Source: Nitrospinae bacterium RIFCSPLOWO2_12_FULL_45_22
GTDB lineage: Bacteria; 2-12-FULL-45-22
Length of the DNA stretch: 7,743 nucleotides
Reading direction: 5' to 3'
Assembly: GCA_001803565.1 (NCBI GenBank)
Contig: MHDQ01000213.1
Span: forward strand, 1 to 7,743
The notes below the pieces were generated by a model that was not told the DNA's origin, did no database searches, and worked only from the letters and a program-made list of their open reading frames with translations. Both the position numbers and the translations under genes were made by a program. Every line of letters starts with the position of its first letter. Position 1 is the first letter of the stretch. Below, in pieces: positions 265-7,743 of this stretch.

Positions 265-1680
265 TTATCTTACTGGACGGCATTTCCAGAAATAGCTATT
301 AAATCCTTCAGCCTCCTGCATCTTCCTGAAAGTTAGCTCCATAGGCATATCAACCTCAATCTTATCCGGGTCACGATCCGTCATCTGCCCATAGAACCTG
401 ACACCAGCATCCAGGTCAACAATACTGGTTATGACGGGTGGATCAATACTCTGGGCAAGGTGATCCTTGCAGAAGGTGTAGAGTTTCCCTTTCATCTCGG
501 CCAGTCTGACCTCTTCATACTGGTCTTTAGCCCGGCAATAAGCACAGACCCGCTGGGGTGGAAAGAATAACCGGCTGCAACTCTTGCATTTGCTGGCATG
601 AAGACCAAGGACCATCTTGCGATCCCGGTGGAGAACCGCGGCGGACGAGACCATGGGAGGCCGGCGCCGGCCTATCTCGACCTCCATAAGCCTTCGCAGC
701 CTGATATATTTTTCATAATTGCTGATTAGCCTCTTAGAATTCAAGTAGCCTTTTACTCCACGGCACTCTTTATTTTCTGGTATTTTATCTTTTACTTGCA
801 GGGAGAATACATCACAGCCATCACCATAATTTATTAGCAGCAGCCTATCCCCGGTCTTAGCATCTTCTAAAGCCCCTACCAATATCAGCAGGGCAAAGGC
901 ACTGCCTGTATTGCCTACCGAGTCGAACATAGGGTCCTGTATCTGGGTTTTAGGGTCGAGCTTCAGGCCCCGGGCCATTTCCTGATGCCGGCGGCCATCA
1001 GAGGCATAGAGGACGACCTTAGTATAATCCTGGGTATTAGCGTTGAATTGCTTTAAGGCAGCACGGACGGCCTCCTGAACATTGGTGGTATAGCCCTGGG
1101 TCATGACAAACCGGTCTTCCCAGGATTTGACAAAGTTTTGCCCATCGGCCCGCCATATGTCTATTATTTCATCGGTGTGGGTATAACTGCCTTCTATGAT
1201 CGTGCTACCAGCATCGCTAATGATCAGGGCCACAGCACCATCGCCAAATACCTGCTCGAATTCTGACCCTGGCGCACCCAGCCGACAATCAGCCGCTACT
1301 ACCATAACCTTCCGGGCAGAACCGGCTTTTACGGCATCTACTGCAGCCCGGATCGCATTGGTCCCTGCCCTTAAAGAATTAGCAAAGTCAGTGGTAAATA
1401 TATTGCGCCGCAAGTCCAAAGCGGCTGCTACAATGGCTGCCGATTGTTTCTCCTTATATGGTGCCGTAGTACTGGCAAAGTAAAGCGCATCTATACTGTC
1501 TCGCTCTATCCCTTTGAGGCAGTCCTGCCCCGCCTCCACGGCCATAGTTATACTATCTTCATCAAAATTAGCTACCGCTTTTTCTCCCCTGAGGGGACCA
1601 GCCTCCCAGGCCCGACCGATCTCTTCCCGCTTCAACCGGTGAAAAGGTATATAGGCACCGTACGATTTTATGCTGACCAT
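265..1680 (-). CDS. HMG-CoA synthase-like domain fused to a DUF35 zinc-ribbon/OB-fold domain, catalytic residues apparently lost
   Basis: 471 residues. Residues 1 to about 330 have the thiolase-fold HMG-CoA synthase layout: FANSLRAGT at 99-107 matches the nucleophile elbow, ADCRLGAPG at 130-138 and FGDGAVALI at 145-153 match family core motifs, and VGNTGSA at 255-261 matches the conserved Asn loop. Anchored on AGT, the catalytic Cys position is Leu103 (codon TTA). The Glu position is Thr71 in ASTTAPY, and the His position falls at Tyr225 or Ala226 in LYASDGR. Residues about 355-471 form a DUF35 module: a zinc ribbon with Cys365, Cys368, Cys379 and Cys382, then an OB-fold. In archaea a DUF35 protein bridges separate thiolase and HMG-CoA synthase subunits; here DUF35 is fused to the synthase-like part. 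The ATG has AGGAGG at 1691-1696. The protein probably scaffolds the thiolase encoded 19 bases downstream (inference). Confidence 0.88.
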   Translation of the reverse strand: MVSIKSYGAYIPFHRLKREEIGRAWEAGPLRGEKAVANFDEDSITMAVEAGQDCLKGIERDSIDALYFASTTAPYKEKQSAAIVAAALDLRRNIFTTDFANSLRAGTNAIRAAVDAVKAGSARKVMVVAADCRLGAPGSEFEQVFGDGAVALIISDAGSTIIEGSYTHTDEIIDIWRADGQNFVKSWEDRFVMTQGYTTNVQEAVRAALKQFNANTQDYTKVVLYASDGRRHQEMARGLKLDPKTQIQDPMFDSVGNTGSAFALLILVGALEDAKTGDRLLLINYGDGCDVFSLQVKDKIPENKECRGVKGYLNSKRLISNYEKYIRLRRLMEVEIGRRRPPMVSSAAVLHRDRKMVLGLHASKCKSCSRLFFPPQRVCAYCRAKDQYEEVRLAEMKGKLYTFCKDHLAQSIDPPVITSIVDLDAGVRFYGQMTDRDPDKIEVDMPMELTFRKMQEAEGFNSYFWKCRPVR

Positions 1681-1847: not shown

Positions 1848-2723
1848 TTATTCCTGATAATGGGTTTTTCTGGTTACAATAGCGCCCTTTATCCCCTTTT
1901 CCCTCCTCTCTTTAAATAGATTAAATTCACCCGGCTCGTAACGAATATTAGTCTGGAGGCTATGCATAATAGCATTGGCGATCATACCACTGCCCGCTCC
2001 CATAGCCTCTGCTACGGCATAGAACTGGGTTTTGCCCATCACAATACCGTCGAAGGGCGCCCGGGTAATGGCCTCAGCCAGCTTATCTACTGTCTCTTCC
2101 AGCTTCTCTATAGGTACTACCTTATTTACCAGCCCGACACGCCAGGCCTCCTGGGCATCAATAGGTATGCCCGTAAGCATCATCTCTTTGGCCTTTTTCA
2201 GGCCGACCAACTGAGTGACCAGCCACACATCCGTAGTGGGGCCGATATAACGCCAGCCAGGATGGGTAAACAGGGTATTTTCAGCAGCGATAGTTATGTC
2301 GCAAGCATTAGATATGTTCAACCCACCACCATAACAATACCCATGAACCTCGGCAATGGTAGCCTTCAGGCAATTAAATATGGTACGGAACAGCCCATTG
2401 CTGGACATGAGCCAGATGTCTTTAGACAATCTAGCCCTTTGTGATACACGGCGTTCTTTCCCAGTGGTATCCATACCATACATAACCCCCAGTTCCGCTA
2501 CATCATGTCCCGAGCAAAAAGAGCGGCCTGCCCCTCTAAAAATCAGTACCTTAATATCCTCATCTTCATTGGCCGAATGAACTATCTCGTTTATCCTCTG
2601 ATAATGGCCTATGCCAAGGGCATTTAGCTTTTCGGGCCTATTCAAAGTGATAACAGCGATCTTCTTATCTGGTTTTTTCTCATAAAGAATATCCTCATCC
2701 TTTATTGGTATCTTAGTTGCCAT
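1848..2723 (-). CDS. Enoyl-CoA hydratase/isomerase (crotonase) family protein lacking both hydratase glutamates
   Basis: 291 residues, slightly longer than a typical 260-residue crotonase. The N-terminal VITLNRPEKLNAL (24-36), the first oxyanion-hole segment SFCSGHDV (68-75) and the second, HGYCYGGGLNIS (127-138), are clear crotonase signatures, so acyl-CoA binding and an oxyanion hole are expected. In rat mitochondrial hydratase the acid/base glutamates lie in GGGCELA and FGQPE; the aligned segments here are GGGLNIS, with Asn136, and FTHPGW, with Gly156. Simple hydration of 2-enoyl-CoA by the classical mechanism is therefore unlikely. Crotonases of this kind can be isomerases, decarboxylases, hydrolases or C-C bond-cleaving enzymes; which applies is not visible. 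The insert around residues 80-110 is longer than usual. The ATG follows a G-rich run (GGGGGGG, 2730-2736). It is the first gene of the minus-strand acyl-CoA cluster, 167 bp upstream of the synthase-like gene. Confidence 0.88.
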   Translation of the reverse strand: MATKIPIKDEDILYEKKPDKKIAVITLNRPEKLNALGIGHYQRINEIVHSANEDEDIKVLIFRGAGRSFCSGHDVAELGVMYGMDTTGKERRVSQRARLSKDIWLMSSNGLFRTIFNCLKATIAEVHGYCYGGGLNISNACDITIAAENTLFTHPGWRYIGPTTDVWLVTQLVGLKKAKEMMLTGIPIDAQEAWRVGLVNKVVPIEKLEETVDKLAEAITRAPFDGIVMGKTQFYAVAEAMGAGSGMIANAIMHSLQTNIRYEPGEFNLFKERREKGIKGAIVTRKTHYQE

Positions 2724-3448: not shown

Positions 3449-3778
3449 ATGCCTATTTATGAATATCGTTGCAGCCAGTGCCAAAGGGTCAACAGCTTCC
3501 TTATCTTGAAGGAAACTCCTCTTGACTCACTCCAGTGCAAGGGGTGTGGTAGTCAGGATCTCTCCAGAGTTCTATCAAAGTTTGCTTATCATAAATCTGA
3601 GGCCAGCCGTATTGATGAATACGATCCCAATAAACGGCATGGATCAGAATTCTATAAAGACACACGGAACATAGGTTTGCATGCCCAGAACCGGATGAAA
3701 GAGTTGGGGGTAGACTTGGGGTCACAATTTGATGCGGTAGTAGATAAGGCCCGCTCCGGGGAATTGATTGATATATAG
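3449..3778 (+). CDS. FmdB-family zinc-ribbon protein
   Basis: 109 residues. The N-terminus MPIYEYRC is the hallmark of the FmdB/CxxC_CxxC_SSSS family. The zinc ribbon uses Cys8, Cys11, Cys30 and Cys33. Residues about 35-75 are hydrophilic and low in pattern. The C-terminal helix (GSQFDAVVDKARSGELI, about 91-107) is also typical of the family. FmdB itself was named as a putative regulator of formamidase; for most members the role is unknown, so no function beyond metal and possibly nucleic-acid binding is claimed. The start is well supported by AAGGAGGG at 3433-3440. The gene is divergent from the acyl-CoA operon. Directly after it, overlapping the stop, begins an open frame for a DUF72 remnant. 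A 6-bp hairpin (AGCCCG 3777-3782 with CGGGCT 3793-3798) overlaps the stop codon but has only three following T residues, so it would be a weak terminator. Confidence 0.9.
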   Translation: MPIYEYRCSQCQRVNSFLILKETPLDSLQCKGCGSQDLSRVLSKFAYHKSEASRIDEYDPNKRHGSEFYKDTRNIGLHAQNRMKELGVDLGSQFDAVVDKARSGELIDI

Positions 3779-3924
3779 CCCGAAACCATCTCCGGGCTTT
3801 GGCGGGAGAAATAAAGGACTATATCCAAAGCGATAAAGAGGTCTTTGTCTATTTCAATAATGACCAGGGTGGCTTTGCGGTACAGAACGCCCTGGAGTTA
3901 AAGGAACTTCTAGCGGATGCCTAA
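3772..3924 (+). pseudogene. C-terminal remnant of a DUF72 (YecE-like) protein
   Basis: This frame is open from just after the TGA at 3769-3771 to the TAA at 3922-3924 and encodes 50 residues. The part EVFVYFNNDQGGFAVQNALEL (residues 23-43) carries the diagnostic DUF72 C-terminal motif VYFNND...A..NA. The preceding segment (LRALAGEIKDYI) fits the helix before it. DUF72 proteins are normally about 230-300 residues, so at least 180 N-terminal residues are missing, and the frame has no ATG or ribosome site. The upstream sequence is the intact FmdB gene in another frame, so the 5' part was lost by deletion or rearrangement. The reading frame is undamaged, which suggests a recent event. The function of full-length DUF72 is not known. 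Confidence 0.7.
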
Positions 3925-3925
3925 A

Positions 3926-3985
3926 GGCTACTTGCAGGGCAAGGCCCTGCAGCTCTGGCAGCACAAGGTGCTGCAGCTACACTAC
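3926..3985. mobile_element. 60-bp two-hairpin insert bracketed by a 10-bp direct repeat
   Basis: Two successive hairpins share the loop AAG: GCAGGGC-AAG-GCCCTGC (3934-3950) and GCAGCAC-AAG-GTGCTGC (3958-3974). They differ in the stem at two paired positions and remain perfectly complementary, and both are followed by AGCT. The insert is flanked by exact copies of GATGCCTAAA at 3916-3925 and 3986-3995. The left copy contains the DUF72 stop and the right copy the ATG of the radical SAM gene. This fits insertion with a 10-bp duplication, although I see no terminal inverted repeats. The hairpins lie 12 bases before the start codon, in place of a clear ribosome site, so they may affect its translation. 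Confidence 0.55.
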
Positions 3986-3986
3986 G

Positions 3987-5093
3987 ATGCCTAAATGCCG
4001 AGCTTGCCATAGAGATTCTTTATTGATCTCCAAAAAGATAGGTTTTTGTATAGACTGTATCCGGGGGAATTTTACTGAAGTCTGGCCCACCATACAAGCC
4101 GTCCATTGCCAGAGCCGCTTGGACTCTGGCCTACCACCCACTATTCCCAAGAGCCCCGCAGGGCTTAAATGTCACCTTTGTGTCAACCAGTGCCAGATAG
4201 CTGAAGGAGAGCGCGGCTATTGCGGGTTAAGGATTAATCGGGATGGAAAGCTGGTGGGTGGCGGCCCTGATGATGGCAATGTATCCTGGTACTATGATCC
4301 ATTGCCCACCAATTGTGTAGCTGATTGGGTATGTGCTGGTGGGACTGGAGCAGGCTATCCCAAATATGCCTATAATTCAGGACCAGAACAGGGATACAAG
4401 AATCTGGCTGTCTTCTACCAGGCCTGCTCTTTTAACTGCCTCTTCTGCCAGAACTGGCAATATCGCCGCCTAAGTCATAGCCCAAGGAGGGTCCCGGCTG
4501 AGGCATTAGCAGACGCCGTGGATGAGAAGACGGCTTGTGTCTGTTATTTTGGTGGTGACCCTACCCCGCAACTGGCCCATTCCCTGGCGACTTCCCAACA
4601 AGCCCTGGCCATAACTAGAAACCGCATCCTCCGTATATGTTGGGAGACCAATGGCAGCATGAACCCTTCTTCTCTGGAGGCGATGGCAGACTTAGCCCTC
4701 CGTTCTGGTGGTTGTATTAAGTTTGATCTGAAGGCCTGGCATGAGGAAGTTAATCTGGCCCTGTGTGGTGTAACTAACAAAAGGACTTTAGAAAACTTCC
4801 GCTACTTAGCAGAGAGGGGCTTAGAAAGGACTCAGCCCCCTTTTCTGATTGCCTCTACCCTCTTGGTTCCGGGATATATTGATGTCCAGGAAGTAGAAGG
4901 TCTATCCCGCTTTATCGCTTCATTAAACCCGGATATACCCTATGCCTTATTGGCCTACCACCCACTATTCTATCTCGATGATCTGCCCACTACTTCCAGG
5001 AGTCATGCCCTGGAATGCCAGGCAGCAGCCGAACGGGCAGGGTTAAAGAGGGTCAGGATAGGAAACATCCACCTCCTGCGAGATAATTATTAA
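3987..5093 (+). CDS. Radical SAM protein, AmmeMemoRadiSam/PflA-like, with extra cysteine clusters
   Basis: 368 residues. The 4Fe-4S/SAM motif is CSFNCLFC with Cys147, Cys151 and Cys154, followed by QNW as in the AmmeMemoRadiSam and pyruvate formate-lyase-activating groups. Further family landmarks are FGGDP (188-192), ETNG (220-223), KFDLKAW (245-251) and GNIHLL (359-364). Upstream is a second cluster, CHLCVNQC...GYCGLR, with Cys62, Cys65, Cys69 and Cys79, the usual N-terminal signature of AmmeMemoRadiSam enzymes. At the very N-terminus Cys4, Cys7, Cys21 and Cys24 make a probable additional zinc ribbon. It should bind SAM and generate a 5'-deoxyadenosyl radical; the substrate is unknown, and no AmmeMemo partner genes are in the window. 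No good ribosome site precedes the ATG, but the start is supported by the N-terminal cysteine pairs. It converges with fliW. Confidence 0.88.
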   Translation: MPKCRACHRDSLLISKKIGFCIDCIRGNFTEVWPTIQAVHCQSRLDSGLPPTIPKSPAGLKCHLCVNQCQIAEGERGYCGLRINRDGKLVGGGPDDGNVSWYYDPLPTNCVADWVCAGGTGAGYPKYAYNSGPEQGYKNLAVFYQACSFNCLFCQNWQYRRLSHSPRRVPAEALADAVDEKTACVCYFGGDPTPQLAHSLATSQQALAITRNRILRICWETNGSMNPSSLEAMADLALRSGGCIKFDLKAWHEEVNLALCGVTNKRTLENFRYLAERGLERTQPPFLIASTLLVPGYIDVQEVEGLSRFIASLNPDIPYALLAYHPLFYLDDLPTTSRSHALECQAAAERAGLKRVRIGNIHLLRDNY

Positions 5094-5177: not shown

Positions 5178-5723
5178 TCAGGGTTCTCTGACAGGAGAAA
5201 ATGTGGGGGGAAGACATGAGGAGGGGTTAGGGGTAGGACAGAAAGTAATTATTTCAGCTTTCTTCGGGAGTCTTAGTCTGGTATTTCTTTGTAATTCTTC
5301 TAAGATCAGGTGCTGGGTAGTATATTCCTGCTCCAGCAAGATTACCTGCTTACCCAGCCTATTTTCATTATTAATCAGGATGGGGGCCTGAAGATTAGCT
5401 GTTATCATGCCCGGGTCAGGGGGGATAGTGACTATGGTATGGACTGTCACGCTAGCTGGGTCATTAATTTCCAGGCCGGCTACTTCTTCCCGCGAGATCT
5501 TGACCCTATAATCAGGCCTAAAAATTAGAGGGTTTATGATGACAAAGGCCAGATAAGGGTCTTCTAAGCACTGAAACCACTGGAAAGGCATAGCTTCATC
5601 ATATTTCAGTATGACATATTTGCGTAAGGTAGGAAACCCTATCAGCCCCTGGGTTAAGCTAATAATATCAGCTTCTTCTACCTCAATCTCCTCAAACTGC
5701 CGCGCTACAACTGGTAGTCTCAA
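5178..5723 (-). CDS. fliW: Flagellar assembly factor FliW, with a C-terminal extension
   Basis: 181 residues. GLIGF (26-30), PFQWFQCLEDPYLAFVIINP (46-65) and ANLQAPILIN (109-118) are the core FliW motifs. FliW binds both flagellin and CsrA: when flagellin is secreted, freed FliW sequesters CsrA and flagellin translation resumes. The start is TTG at 5721-5723, chosen because AAAGGAGAG (5731-5739) lies seven bases upstream and the family N-terminus begins there; the next in-frame Met, residue 45, would delete the conserved core. FliW proteins usually end near residue 145-155, about where YTTQHLI (134-140) aligns. The last 35-40 residues, ending in a Pro/Ser-rich stretch, are extra and may be read-through past a lost stop. 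It is the last gene of the flgK-flgL-csrA-fliW order. Confidence 0.93.
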   Translation of the reverse strand: MRLPVVARQFEEIEVEEADIISLTQGLIGFPTLRKYVILKYDEAMPFQWFQCLEDPYLAFVIINPLIFRPDYRVKISREEVAGLEINDPASVTVHTIVTIPPDPGMITANLQAPILINNENRLGKQVILLEQEYTTQHLILEELQRNTRLRLPKKAEIITFCPTPNPSSCLPPTFSPVREP

Positions 5724-5730
5724 ATCTCTT

Positions 5731-5739
5731 CTCTCCTTT
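5731..5739 (-). promoter_or_regulatory. Ribosome binding site deciding the TTG start of fliW
   Basis: AAAGGAGAG on the minus strand, seven bases from TTG at 5721-5723. No ATG or GTG is placed suitably. Confidence 0.75.
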
Positions 5740-5940
5740 GTCTTACTTAACTTGACATTGTCACATTAAAATTGAACCCCTCCCTTGTTATCCTGAATAA
5801 CCGTTCGGCCACTAAGAAGCTCAAAGCGTAAAGTGCAAGGTGTAAAATTAAGGTAATTATTCCTCAGCTTTGCACTTTTAGCTTTGCGTTTTACATTTCC
5901 TTGCGGTCCTTGGGCATTAGTGGCAGATAAGAGGCCTGCG
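5740..5940. repeat. csrA-fliW gap with an imperfect inverted repeat
   Basis: No gene is visible in this gap. AAAGTGCAA (5830-5838) is perfectly complementary to TTGCACTTT (5870-5878), and AAGC on the outside (5824-5827) pairs with GCTT (5881-5884) across a small mismatch. Words such as AAAGCGTAAAGTGCAAGG belong to the same style of intergenic repeat as the GTAAGGCG family. There is no T-tract, so it is not an evident terminator. In related bacteria csrA and fliW are often adjacent; here about 217 bp separate them. Confidence 0.55.
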
Positions 5941-6180
5941 TTATAATCTACTAAACTTTTTTAGCCATATGGTCTTAATGGTCTGGATGTTAGAAGAGCT
6001 TTTGGCAGCCAGTTTATTCTCCATTAAAATCCTGGCATAAACTTCTTCTCGATGAACCATTGTTTCTGATGGTGCCTCTATACCTACACGTACCTGCCCT
6101 CTTTTCACCTCTATAACTGTTACTTTTATCTGAGGGCCTATCTGAATACTCTCCCCTGACTTCCTTGTCAAGACCAGCAT
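5941..6180 (-). CDS. csrA: Carbon storage regulator CsrA
   Basis: 79 residues, slightly longer than the usual 60-75. MLVLTRKSGESIQIG (1-15), QVRVGIEAP (29-37) and HREEVYARI (43-51) are diagnostic. The RNA-contacting residues Leu4, Arg6 and Arg44 are present. Asn55, the counterpart of the Bacillus subtilis residue implicated in FliW control, is also present. CsrA dimers bind GGA motifs in mRNA leaders and repress translation, classically of flagellin in FliW-containing bacteria. The start is ATG with GGGAGGG at 6189-6195, eight bases upstream; that site contains a GGA, so autoregulation is conceivable (inference). The tail after about residue 60 is hydrophilic and poorly conserved. It lies between flgL and fliW on the same strand. 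Confidence 0.95.
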   Translation of the reverse strand: MLVLTRKSGESIQIGPQIKVTVIEVKRGQVRVGIEAPSETMVHREEVYARILMENKLAAKSSSNIQTIKTIWLKKFSRL

Positions 6181-6222
6181 CTAGGTTGCCCTCCCTGGCA
6201 ATATAAGCAATCAGCAAGACTT

Positions 6223-6284
6223 ATCGTAAGCTGTTAGGGGTAAGGCGTAAGGAGAAATTTTTCTCACCCCTTACGCCTTACGAT
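6223..6284. repeat. GTAAGGCG palindromic hairpin in the flgL-csrA gap
   Basis: GTAAGGCGTAAGG (6240-6252) pairs perfectly over 13 bp with CCTTACGCCTTAC (6269-6281). AGAAA (6253-6257) pairs with TTTCT (6260-6264) above a 4-base bulge. An outer copy, ATCGTAAG (6223-6230), can instead pair with CTTACGAT (6277-6284), so two folds compete. In the flgL-to-csrA reading direction no T-run follows, which argues against an intrinsic terminator and for an mRNA processing or stability element, or simply a mobile repeat. A degenerate relative is at 3147-3188. Confidence 0.7.
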
Positions 6285-6292
6285 TATTTCAA

Positions 6293-6318
6293 CTGCAAGC
6301 TGACGGCTGATAACTGAA
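6293..6318 (-). repeat. 26-bp intergenic repeat, copy 2 (TCAGC word family)
   Basis: Its reverse complement matches 1706-1731 at 22 of 26 positions. It lies just downstream of the flgL stop codon. Confidence 0.65.
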
Positions 6319-6328
6319 TGCTTACTTA

Positions 6329-7213
6329 TTAGCGGAGGAAGTCTACTAAAGACTGCAGGATGACCCTTTTAGCTGCGGCCAAAGAGGCTTCATAGGCCAG
6401 TTGTTTGGCATTTAGCTCGGTTATAGCCTTAGCCATATCCATATCCTCAGTCCCTGATAGGAGCAGGGTAAACTCTGTTTCAAAATCTAGGGTCCTCTCC
6501 CGGGTGGTTTCTAATTGGTTGATTTTTGCACCGGCATAGGATATCTCACGTATGACCTGCTCCAGGGCACTATTCAACTCCCCTAACTGTGCGGCAATAC
6601 CGGTGGAATTGTCATTTTCCAGGGCAGTCTTTAAATCACTCAAGATGGTAAAGATATCCTTTCCTCCTCCACTACCTTTAAATACCCTGTTACCGGAGAT
6701 ATTAACGACTACGGATACATCGGGGCTTATCTCTACCTTTATCTCGCCATCATCGCCAGAGTAAGCACCTGAGCTGTCAAATGGAGCAGTATTAGTCTTA
6801 TAGCCACCAAATATATAGCGGTTATCCAGTTTGGTATTAGCCAGTTGAGCAACCTGATCAAATATTACCTGTATTTCTTGGGCGGCAACATCCCGGCTAA
6901 AGTCATCAGCGGTACTGGAAGCCTGTGCTATAGCAATTTCGTTGGCCCTTACCACCAGGTTCTTCAGGTTGGTTAAGGCAGTGCTGGTAATATTAAGCCA
7001 GTTTTTCCCTTGATCAATATTCCTCTTATACTGACCCAGGGATTCTAGGGTTCTTTTATAACTCAGTACCTGTGTGATACCAACAGGATCATCTGATGGC
7101 CGGTTGATCCGTTTGCCAGAGGCAATAGACTCTTGAATCTTCGCTATTTGGGTCTGGTTCTTAGTGAAGCCTTGAATAAAGTTGTTAATTAGTATTCGGG
7201 AAGTTATGCGCAC
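6329..7213 (-). CDS. flgL: Flagellar hook-associated protein 3 (FlgL)
   Basis: 294 residues, normal for FlgL. The N-terminal helical region contains ASGKRINRPSDDPVG (31-45), the D0/D1 signature shared by flagellin and FlgL. The C-terminal helix region reads EDMDMAKAITELNAKQ (256-271) and ends ILQSLVDFL, again typical of FlgL. The short middle domain (about 140-190) is the variable outer part. FlgL joins the hook, through FlgK, to the flagellin filament and is exported by the flagellar type III apparatus. The start is GTG at 7211-7213, supported by AAGGGAG at 7221-7227 and by the match MRITSRI at the N-terminus. Position directly after flgK rules out a plain flagellin call. Confidence 0.94.
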   Translation of the reverse strand: MRITSRILINNFIQGFTKNQTQIAKIQESIASGKRINRPSDDPVGITQVLSYKRTLESLGQYKRNIDQGKNWLNITSTALTNLKNLVVRANEIAIAQASSTADDFSRDVAAQEIQVIFDQVAQLANTKLDNRYIFGGYKTNTAPFDSSGAYSGDDGEIKVEISPDVSVVVNISGNRVFKGSGGGKDIFTILSDLKTALENDNSTGIAAQLGELNSALEQVIREISYAGAKINQLETTRERTLDFETEFTLLLSGTEDMDMAKAITELNAKQLAYEASLAAAKRVILQSLVDFLR

Positions 7214-7238
7214 GGCTTTACTCCCTTTTTTAGGTTAT

Positions 7239-7293
7239 TGTAGGCCCAGATTTATCCGTACCTCCCAATAGCACGAATAAAATTGTGCCTACA
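7239..7293. repeat. 55-bp palindromic element in the flgK-flgL gap
   Basis: The terminal 21-bp arms (7239-7259 and 7273-7293) match as inverted repeats at 17 of 21 positions, beginning TGTAGGC and ending GCCTACA. A smaller local hairpin, GCACGA...TTGTGC (7271-7288), overlaps the right arm. It ends three bases before the flgK stop codon. No flanking direct repeat is clear. Confidence 0.6.
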
Positions 7294-7296
7294 TTT

Positions 7297-7743
7297 TTAT
7301 ACCATTTCTAACAAGGTTTGGAATAATTCATCGGCCATGGTAACCAGCTTGGCTGCAGCATCATAGGCCTGCTGGAAAAGTATAAGATTAGCCATCTCTT
7401 CATCCAGCGATACCCCCGAGATAGATTCCCGGTAATTACTCAGTTGATTAACAATGGTCTCTTGATGCTCCAGGTTGCTGGTAGCTTCCTGGGTCTTACT
7501 GCCAACATATCCCACCAGGTTAGTATAAAATTCCGCAAAGGTAACGGTATCGGTGGACATAGTCAACTTACTTTGCAGGGCCGCTATACTCAAAGCAATG
7601 CTGTTATTACCCACACCATAATTACCAGTGCTAGGGTCTACCACCCCGGTAGCGATGTTATTGGTATCTCCCTCTATAACAGAATTTAAACTTATATCTA
7701 AGGCATTTTCACCGGTAAAAAAAGTATTTAACCCCAGCGCCAT
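7297..7743 (-). CDS. flgK: Flagellar hook-associated protein 1 (FlgK), C-terminal part
   Basis: 149 codons including the stop are visible, and the gene continues beyond the right edge; the Met at the window edge is internal. The C-terminus contains ESISGVSLDEEMANLILF and QQAYDAAAKLVTMADELF, the D1/D0 signature that separates FlgK from other hook-associated proteins. ALGLNTFFTG at the visible start fits the FlgK segment before it. FlgK is the first hook-filament junction protein. flgL follows 83 bp downstream with a palindromic repeat in the gap. Confidence 0.93.
   Translation of the reverse strand: MALGLNTFFTGENALDISLNSVIEGDTNNIATGVVDPSTGNYGVGNNSIALSIAALQSKLTMSTDTVTFAEFYTNLVGYVGSKTQEATSNLEHQETIVNQLSNYRESISGVSLDEEMANLILFQQAYDAAAKLVTMADELFQTLLEMV

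Follow-up and report, generated by a model that had tools for sequence, protein, structure and literature searches.

A maintained HMG-CoA-synthase-like and DUF35 fusion protein without the catalytic triad, a putative subunit of the neighbouring thiolase

The window analysed here, a stretch of 7,743 nucleotides that is a whole contig (G000:C213:1-7743) of a bacterial assembly (3.67 Mb in 321 contigs, 85% complete), encodes a 471-residue protein in which a domain similar to HMG-CoA synthase (HMGCS) is fused to a DUF35 domain. The Cys, Glu and His of the HMGCS active site are all replaced in this protein, and the loss of this triad is ancient and maintained. The fused protein is probably a non-catalytic scaffold and CoA-site subunit of the thiolase encoded next to it, acting in acyl-CoA catabolism. 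A dead HMGCS-fold subunit within a thiolase/DUF35 assembly is already known from PhlA and MucA. The covalent HMGCS-like::DUF35 fusion appears to be new, as do its breadth and its multiplication, and no description of the fusion, its single origin, its breadth or its five-copy expansion was found in the open-access literature.

The features of the locus are listed in Table 1. The N-terminal part of the protein has the archaeal-type HMG-CoA synthase/KAS-III fold, and a Pfam search of the protein gave both PF12172 and PF01796 above their cut-offs. The four Cys residues of the Zn ribbon are invariant in 83 sequences. An AlphaFold2 model was built with 83 family sequences as input, and its best match in VIA-align was 6esq_I, chain I of the archaeal acetoacetyl-CoA thiolase/DUF35/HMG-CoA synthase complex from Methanothermococcus thermolithotrophicus (31% identity), followed by PhlA (Z 45-46) and then MucA (Z 42); residues 1-333 superpose on the HMGCS fold. 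The original prediction had recognized the HMGCS-like part correctly, but the C-terminal DUF35 domain, which decides the interpretation of the fused protein, went unmentioned. It had also placed the gene in an intact operon. The fused ORF is indeed full length, whereas the completeness of the operon can only be half checked, as the contig ends 81 codons into the thiolase gene. Elsewhere in the window, a small Zn-ribbon (PF09723) protein and then a radical SAM protein are encoded on the plus strand (3449-5093), and the minus-strand genes at 5178-7743 resemble fliW, flgL and flgK by eye and are unrelated to the acyl-CoA genes. A PHROGs search gave no match. The phylum of the window is represented by two genomes in the genome set searched.

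Table 1. Features of the fused gene and its neighbours, in window coordinates
Feature	Position	Strand	Basis
Fused HMGCS-like and DUF35 protein, 471 aa	265..1680	-	ORF; Pfam; AlphaFold2 model (mean pLDDT 94.7, pTM 0.94); five paralogues in genome
HMG-CoA-synthase-like domain, residues 1-333, without Cys/Glu/His	682..1680	-	NF003274 match 1-333, 241.8 bits; 6esq_I Z 48.8, 1.3 Å over 330 residues
DUF35 domain (rubredoxin-like Zn ribbon C365/C368/C379/C382 and OB fold), about residues 345-471	268..648	-	PF12172, PF01796; 6esq_E match, E 1e-14
Thr71 codon ACT, catalytic Glu position (6ESQ Glu82)	1470-1468 (1468..1470)	-	phmmer alignment; Thr in 94% of fused members
Leu103 codon TTA, nucleophilic Cys position (6ESQ Cys114)	1374-1372 (1372..1374)	-	phmmer alignment; Leu in 81%, Cys in no fused member
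Tyr225 codon, catalytic His position (6ESQ His238)	1008-1006 (1006..1008)	-	phmmer alignment
SCP2-type thiolase (partner), N-terminal 81 aa, cut by contig end	3..245	-	NF004810 acetyl-CoA acetyltransferase match, 1.5e-25; full homologues beside paralogues are thiolases
Enoyl-CoA hydratase (crotonase), upstream of fused gene, same strand	1848..2723	-	PF00378, 5.5e-39

In a phmmer alignment with 6ESQ chain I, Leu103 occupies the place of the Cys in FACKAGT, Thr71 that of the Glu in SESHPY and Tyr225 that of the His in FHQ, so that none of the three catalytic residues of an archaeal-type HMG-CoA synthase (NF003274) is present. The 6ESQ numbers (Cys114, Glu82 and His238) were counted in this analysis, and PMC6392133 gives the same positions for the key Cys and Glu. 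Leu103 and Thr71 had been assigned to the Cys and Glu positions from a motif in the sequence, and either Tyr225 or Ala226 to the His. The alignment confirmed the first two and settled the third on Tyr225, and the coordinates are exact. Because the AlphaFold model superposes so closely on 6esq_I, the residue assignment is independent of a single motif anchor.

The genome of the window contains five fused proteins, of which the others are 44-49% identical to that of the window, and all five have Leu at the Cys position and Thr or Asn at the Glu position. A sequencing error at Leu103 was ruled out, since the paralogues agree and the TTA codon is two changes away from a Cys codon. Cys132 was considered as a substitute nucleophile and rejected, being conserved in only 57 of 92 fused members. 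A scan of public genomes revealed at least 504 relatives; the best 80 of these loci belong chiefly to Chloroflexota (Dehalococcoidia) and 'Deltaproteobacteria', with some from Bacillota, Nitrospinota and Armatimonadota. Position 103 in 92 fused members is Leu (79), Ile (8), Met (2), Val (2) or Thr (1) and never Cys, and Glu was found at position 71 in none of the 92. Among about 120 fused proteins in a larger set, there was likewise neither a Cys at position 103 nor a complete Glu-Cys-His triad. A Glu does align at position 71 in one very divergent fused member (L111), which has Glu for the Cys and Gly for the His, and two further fused members have His at position 225, both without Cys or Glu. 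Because all five paralogues carry Leu together with Thr or Asn, and about 120 fused homologues lack the Cys, chance or error behind the triad loss is excluded. The unfused archaeal-type HMGCS of bacteria keep Glu, Cys and His in 30 of 30 cases, and downstream of their genes come separate genes for a thiolase and a DUF35 protein. True HMGCS and fusions shared no genome in the set compared, which carries no weight, since chance alone would give about two genomes with both.

In a tree of 118 rows, a quick tree with SH-aLRT support only, without bootstrap and with some long-branched rows, the fused proteins lie on one side of a branch (SH-aLRT 94), and the fused/unfused state changes once, compared with 29.6 changes in shuffles. 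PhlA, MucA (a long branch) and L143 fall on the unfused HMGCS side. L143 (G162:C19) is an unfused PhlA-like protein (SSTFPY, FSGKSGT and FHQ) that scores 398 bits with NF003274 and lacks the Cys and Glu. At twenty positions, including T71, E77, L103, R104, R133, D147, R230 and G259, the fused and the unfused groups each conserve a residue, but not the same one. At and around the old active site of the fusions, Thr71 is conserved in 94%, Arg133 in 98%, and Asp147 and Gly259 each in 99%. Position 133 is presumably equivalent to Leu142 of E. coli FabH, which lines the acyl pocket, and the near-invariant Arg133 would fill or recharge this pocket. Both domains are under purifying selection, with a median pairwise dN/dS of 0.090 for the dead HMGCS-like domain (84 pairs) and 0.061 for the DUF35 domain (77 pairs), the pairs being non-independent in both cases. 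The many homologues, none with the triad, their own set of conserved residues and the low dN/dS bear out the earlier description of the protein as a maintained pseudoenzyme.

Such conservation might instead reflect a new catalysis in the HMGCS-like half, such as hydrolysis, hydration or the activation of an acyl-CoA ahead of the thiolase step, with Thr71, Glu77, Arg104, Arg133, Asp147 and Arg230 as the residues involved. These six positions are 86-99% conserved in the fusions, and true HMGCS have other, just as conserved residues there, although the change at Arg230 is a mild one from Lys to Arg. However, the catalytic positions are without a conserved Cys or His, and PhlA, which among the characterised relatives lacking the catalytic Cys and Glu is the nearest, gives no residue to acyl transfer. 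Asp147 lies in a GDG motif that is also common in FabH-type enzymes and therefore need not signal a new function. We consider a new catalysis unlikely.

A thiolase gene lies downstream of the fused gene in 117 of 124 fused loci, with a median gap of 12 nt, so that thiolase, DUF35 and HMGCS-like modules are encoded together in these loci; the window itself has 81 thiolase codons. Six of the seven remaining loci are limited by contig ends. The seventh, L144 (G098:C116), is a real exception and the sole testable locus where no thiolase lies downstream. A crotonase gene stands between the fused gene and the thiolase gene in some loci, and 23 loci that apparently lacked a thiolase proved to be artefacts of overlapping stop-to-stop frames or of such an intervening crotonase gene. 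Seven loci (L013, L026, L029, L040, L081, L147 and L177) contain fused-thiolase-fused-thiolase tandem arrays, and in two others (L014 and L028) a separate thiolase and an unfused DUF35 gene, in a BbsAB-like order, lie directly upstream of the fused protein and thiolase pair. Distances among the thiolases correlate with those among the fused proteins (r = 0.81; none of 500 permutations as high). At the sequence level, this correlation shows that the pair travels together and does not imply contact between the proteins; adjacent genes that are inherited jointly would also be co-located and show correlated distances.

The nucleophilic Cys and the HDCF and GHP motifs (Cys/His/Cys/His) are invariant in all 102 full-length partner thiolases of the homologues; the window's own copy ends before the catalytic residues. 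A retro-aldolase (Sal/Ltp2) reading of the partner was rejected, as HDCF is kept. Judged by sequence, the assembly thus consists of a uniformly dead half and a uniformly live one. The closest solved relative of the partner thiolase is the 6ESQ thiolase (1e-53), and further matches are SCP2 thiolases and BbsB (3e-40), with PhlC far weaker (1e-14 to 1e-16).

The neighbouring genes encode crotonases (30 loci), acyl-CoA dehydrogenases (22), class III CoA-transferases (9), short-chain dehydrogenases (7) and methylmalonyl-CoA-mutase-type enzymes with B12 subunits (5). In the operons of L022, L023, L031 and L078, the fused protein and the thiolase are accompanied by an acyl-CoA dehydrogenase, an enoyl-CoA hydratase and an enzyme of the methylmalonyl-CoA-mutase type whose B12-binding subunit is separate, which together may form a route for branched acyl-CoAs. 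Because the neighbours are genes of acyl-CoA degradation, the thiolase most likely cleaves beta-ketoacyl-CoAs; we infer the thiolysis direction, the catabolic role and the substrate from the neighbours only. These genes also bear on the idea that the pair, instead of being a catabolic thiolase, is a PhlACB/MucABC-type acyltransferase or a biosynthetic condensing enzyme that performs C-acylation or Claisen condensation. Of the HMGCS-fold subunits of known structure that lack the catalytic Cys, the nearest two, PhlA and MucA, do belong to acyltransferases. However, the acyl-CoA dehydrogenases, hydratases, CoA-transferases and B12 mutases around the pair, the closer similarity of its thiolase to the 6ESQ thiolase and BbsB than to PhlC, and the position of PhlA on the unfused side of the tree make such an activity improbable.

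That the protein is a working HMG-CoA synthase whose catalytic residues have moved is suggested by its NF003274 score, which is just below the curated NCBIfam equivalog cut-off (241.8 of 244 bits), and by that of a homologue from a related genome, which exceeds the cut-off (248.6 bits). However, NF003274 scores are bimodal, the unfused type reaching 398-556 bits and the fusions staying below 250; the high-scoring true enzymes of the same type keep the triad and are unfused, whereas Cys, Glu and His are all replaced throughout the fused family, in a fold superposing at 1.3 Å. HMG-CoA reductase was not found in the window's 85% complete assembly; GcpE was likewise not found there, so that a comparison of the mevalonate and MEP pathways is uninformative. 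With the triad absent family-wide and no reductase found in that assembly, an active HMG-CoA synthase was rejected as very improbable. A decaying relic, as the loss of all three catalytic residues might indicate, is hardly credible given that the ORF is full length, that the genome has five paralogues, that the scan yielded more than 500 relatives, that dN/dS is 0.09 and that the Zn ligands are invariant; decay is refuted for the family.

Two fused members without the triad, L092 (G001:C35; 248.6 bits) and L108 (G033:C7; 244.5 bits), score above the equivalog cut-off, and automatic annotation would call them active HMG-CoA synthases. Because at least two fused members pass this cut-off, a step of the mevalonate pathway may be ascribed to genomes that lack it.

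The original prediction's suggestion that the protein serves the adjacent thiolase as a structural subunit or as one that binds CoA remains the best-supported reading of the putative function, given an intact thiolase next to the fused gene in all testable loci but one, the bridging by DUF35 in known complexes and the precedent of PhlA. We propose that the fused protein would be an obligate non-catalytic partner of the neighbouring SCP2-type thiolase. Its HMGCS-like half would dimerise, and this dimer and the DUF35 half would pack on the thiolase dimer as in 6ESQ and PhlACB. The fused protein would then wall off a shared cavity, hold CoA and the acyl chain and stabilise the thiolase, and the chemistry would be carried out by the thiolase alone, with its Cys nucleophile and the HDCF and GHP histidines. 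A scaffold and cavity wall is proposed because DUF35 connects the HMGCS with the thiolase in both 6ESQ and PhlACB and because PhlA offers a precedent; the physical complex and the CoA site are drawn from these likenesses. In the window, beside an enoyl-CoA hydratase, such a complex would most likely cleave a beta-ketoacyl-CoA.

More tentatively, and perhaps rather less likely than its opposite, the dead active site might serve as a conserved acyl/CoA-binding specificity module. The fusions would then mark an extensive group of bacterial thiolases, uncharacterised and belonging chiefly to anaerobes, with as many as five in a genome, in which every thiolase is obligately paired with a dead HMGCS::DUF35 protein and one scaffold is used for many beta-ketoacyl-CoA substrates. 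The fused genes occur in operons for acyl-CoA degradation in uncultured Chloroflexota and Desulfobacterota-type bacteria, and little is known of the substrates of these bacteria. In this clade, an ancestral two-enzyme channelling complex of thiolase and HMG-CoA synthase seems to have turned into a working enzyme and a retained dead one, which makes it possible to compare live and dead members of the same assembly as they occur in nature.

Among known systems, the 6ESQ complex shares the HMGCS fold and the DUF35 family and contains the nearest thiolase. However, its HMGCS is active (Cys114 and Glu82) and forms a chain separate from DUF35, whereas in the window protein DUF35 is fused to an HMGCS-like domain devoid of the triad. 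PhlACB (PpATase, PDB 5M3K/9SKH) resembles the proposed assembly in combining an HMGCS-fold PhlA, a DUF35 protein PhlB and a catalytic thiolase-fold PhlC. PhlA lacks the catalytic Cys and Glu, acyl transfer uses only PhlC residues, and PhlA and PhlB were judged to be needed for a properly formed complex (PMC6392133); both here and in 6ESQ, DUF35 is the bridge between the HMGCS and the thiolase. PhlA had already been termed an inactive member of the thiolase superfamily in the DUF35 structure paper (PMC2954200). Nevertheless, PhlACB consists of three separate chains and performs a Friedel-Crafts acylation in antibiotic synthesis. The window protein shares with PhlA the absence of Cys and Glu and does not group with it in the tree, and the triad replacements differ (Cys/Gly/Gln in PhlA, Thr/Leu/Tyr in the window protein). 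MucABC from Streptococcus macacae (PDB 9VBO) is likewise a three-protein complex with an HMGCS-fold subunit, MucA, that has Glu instead of the Cys, but MucA is unfused and only 22-23% identical, and the complex acetylates tetramates. BbsAB (benzoylsuccinyl-CoA thiolase, PDB 7PXP) pairs an SCP2-type thiolase with an obligate DUF35 protein in anaerobic acyl-CoA catabolism, and both of its parts match, although it has no HMGCS-like domain. The steroid aldolases Sal/Shy and Ltp2/ChsH2 also combine a thiolase fold with DUF35, but Tyr-based motifs replace their thiolase motif, whereas every full-length partner thiolase of the fused family keeps HDCF.
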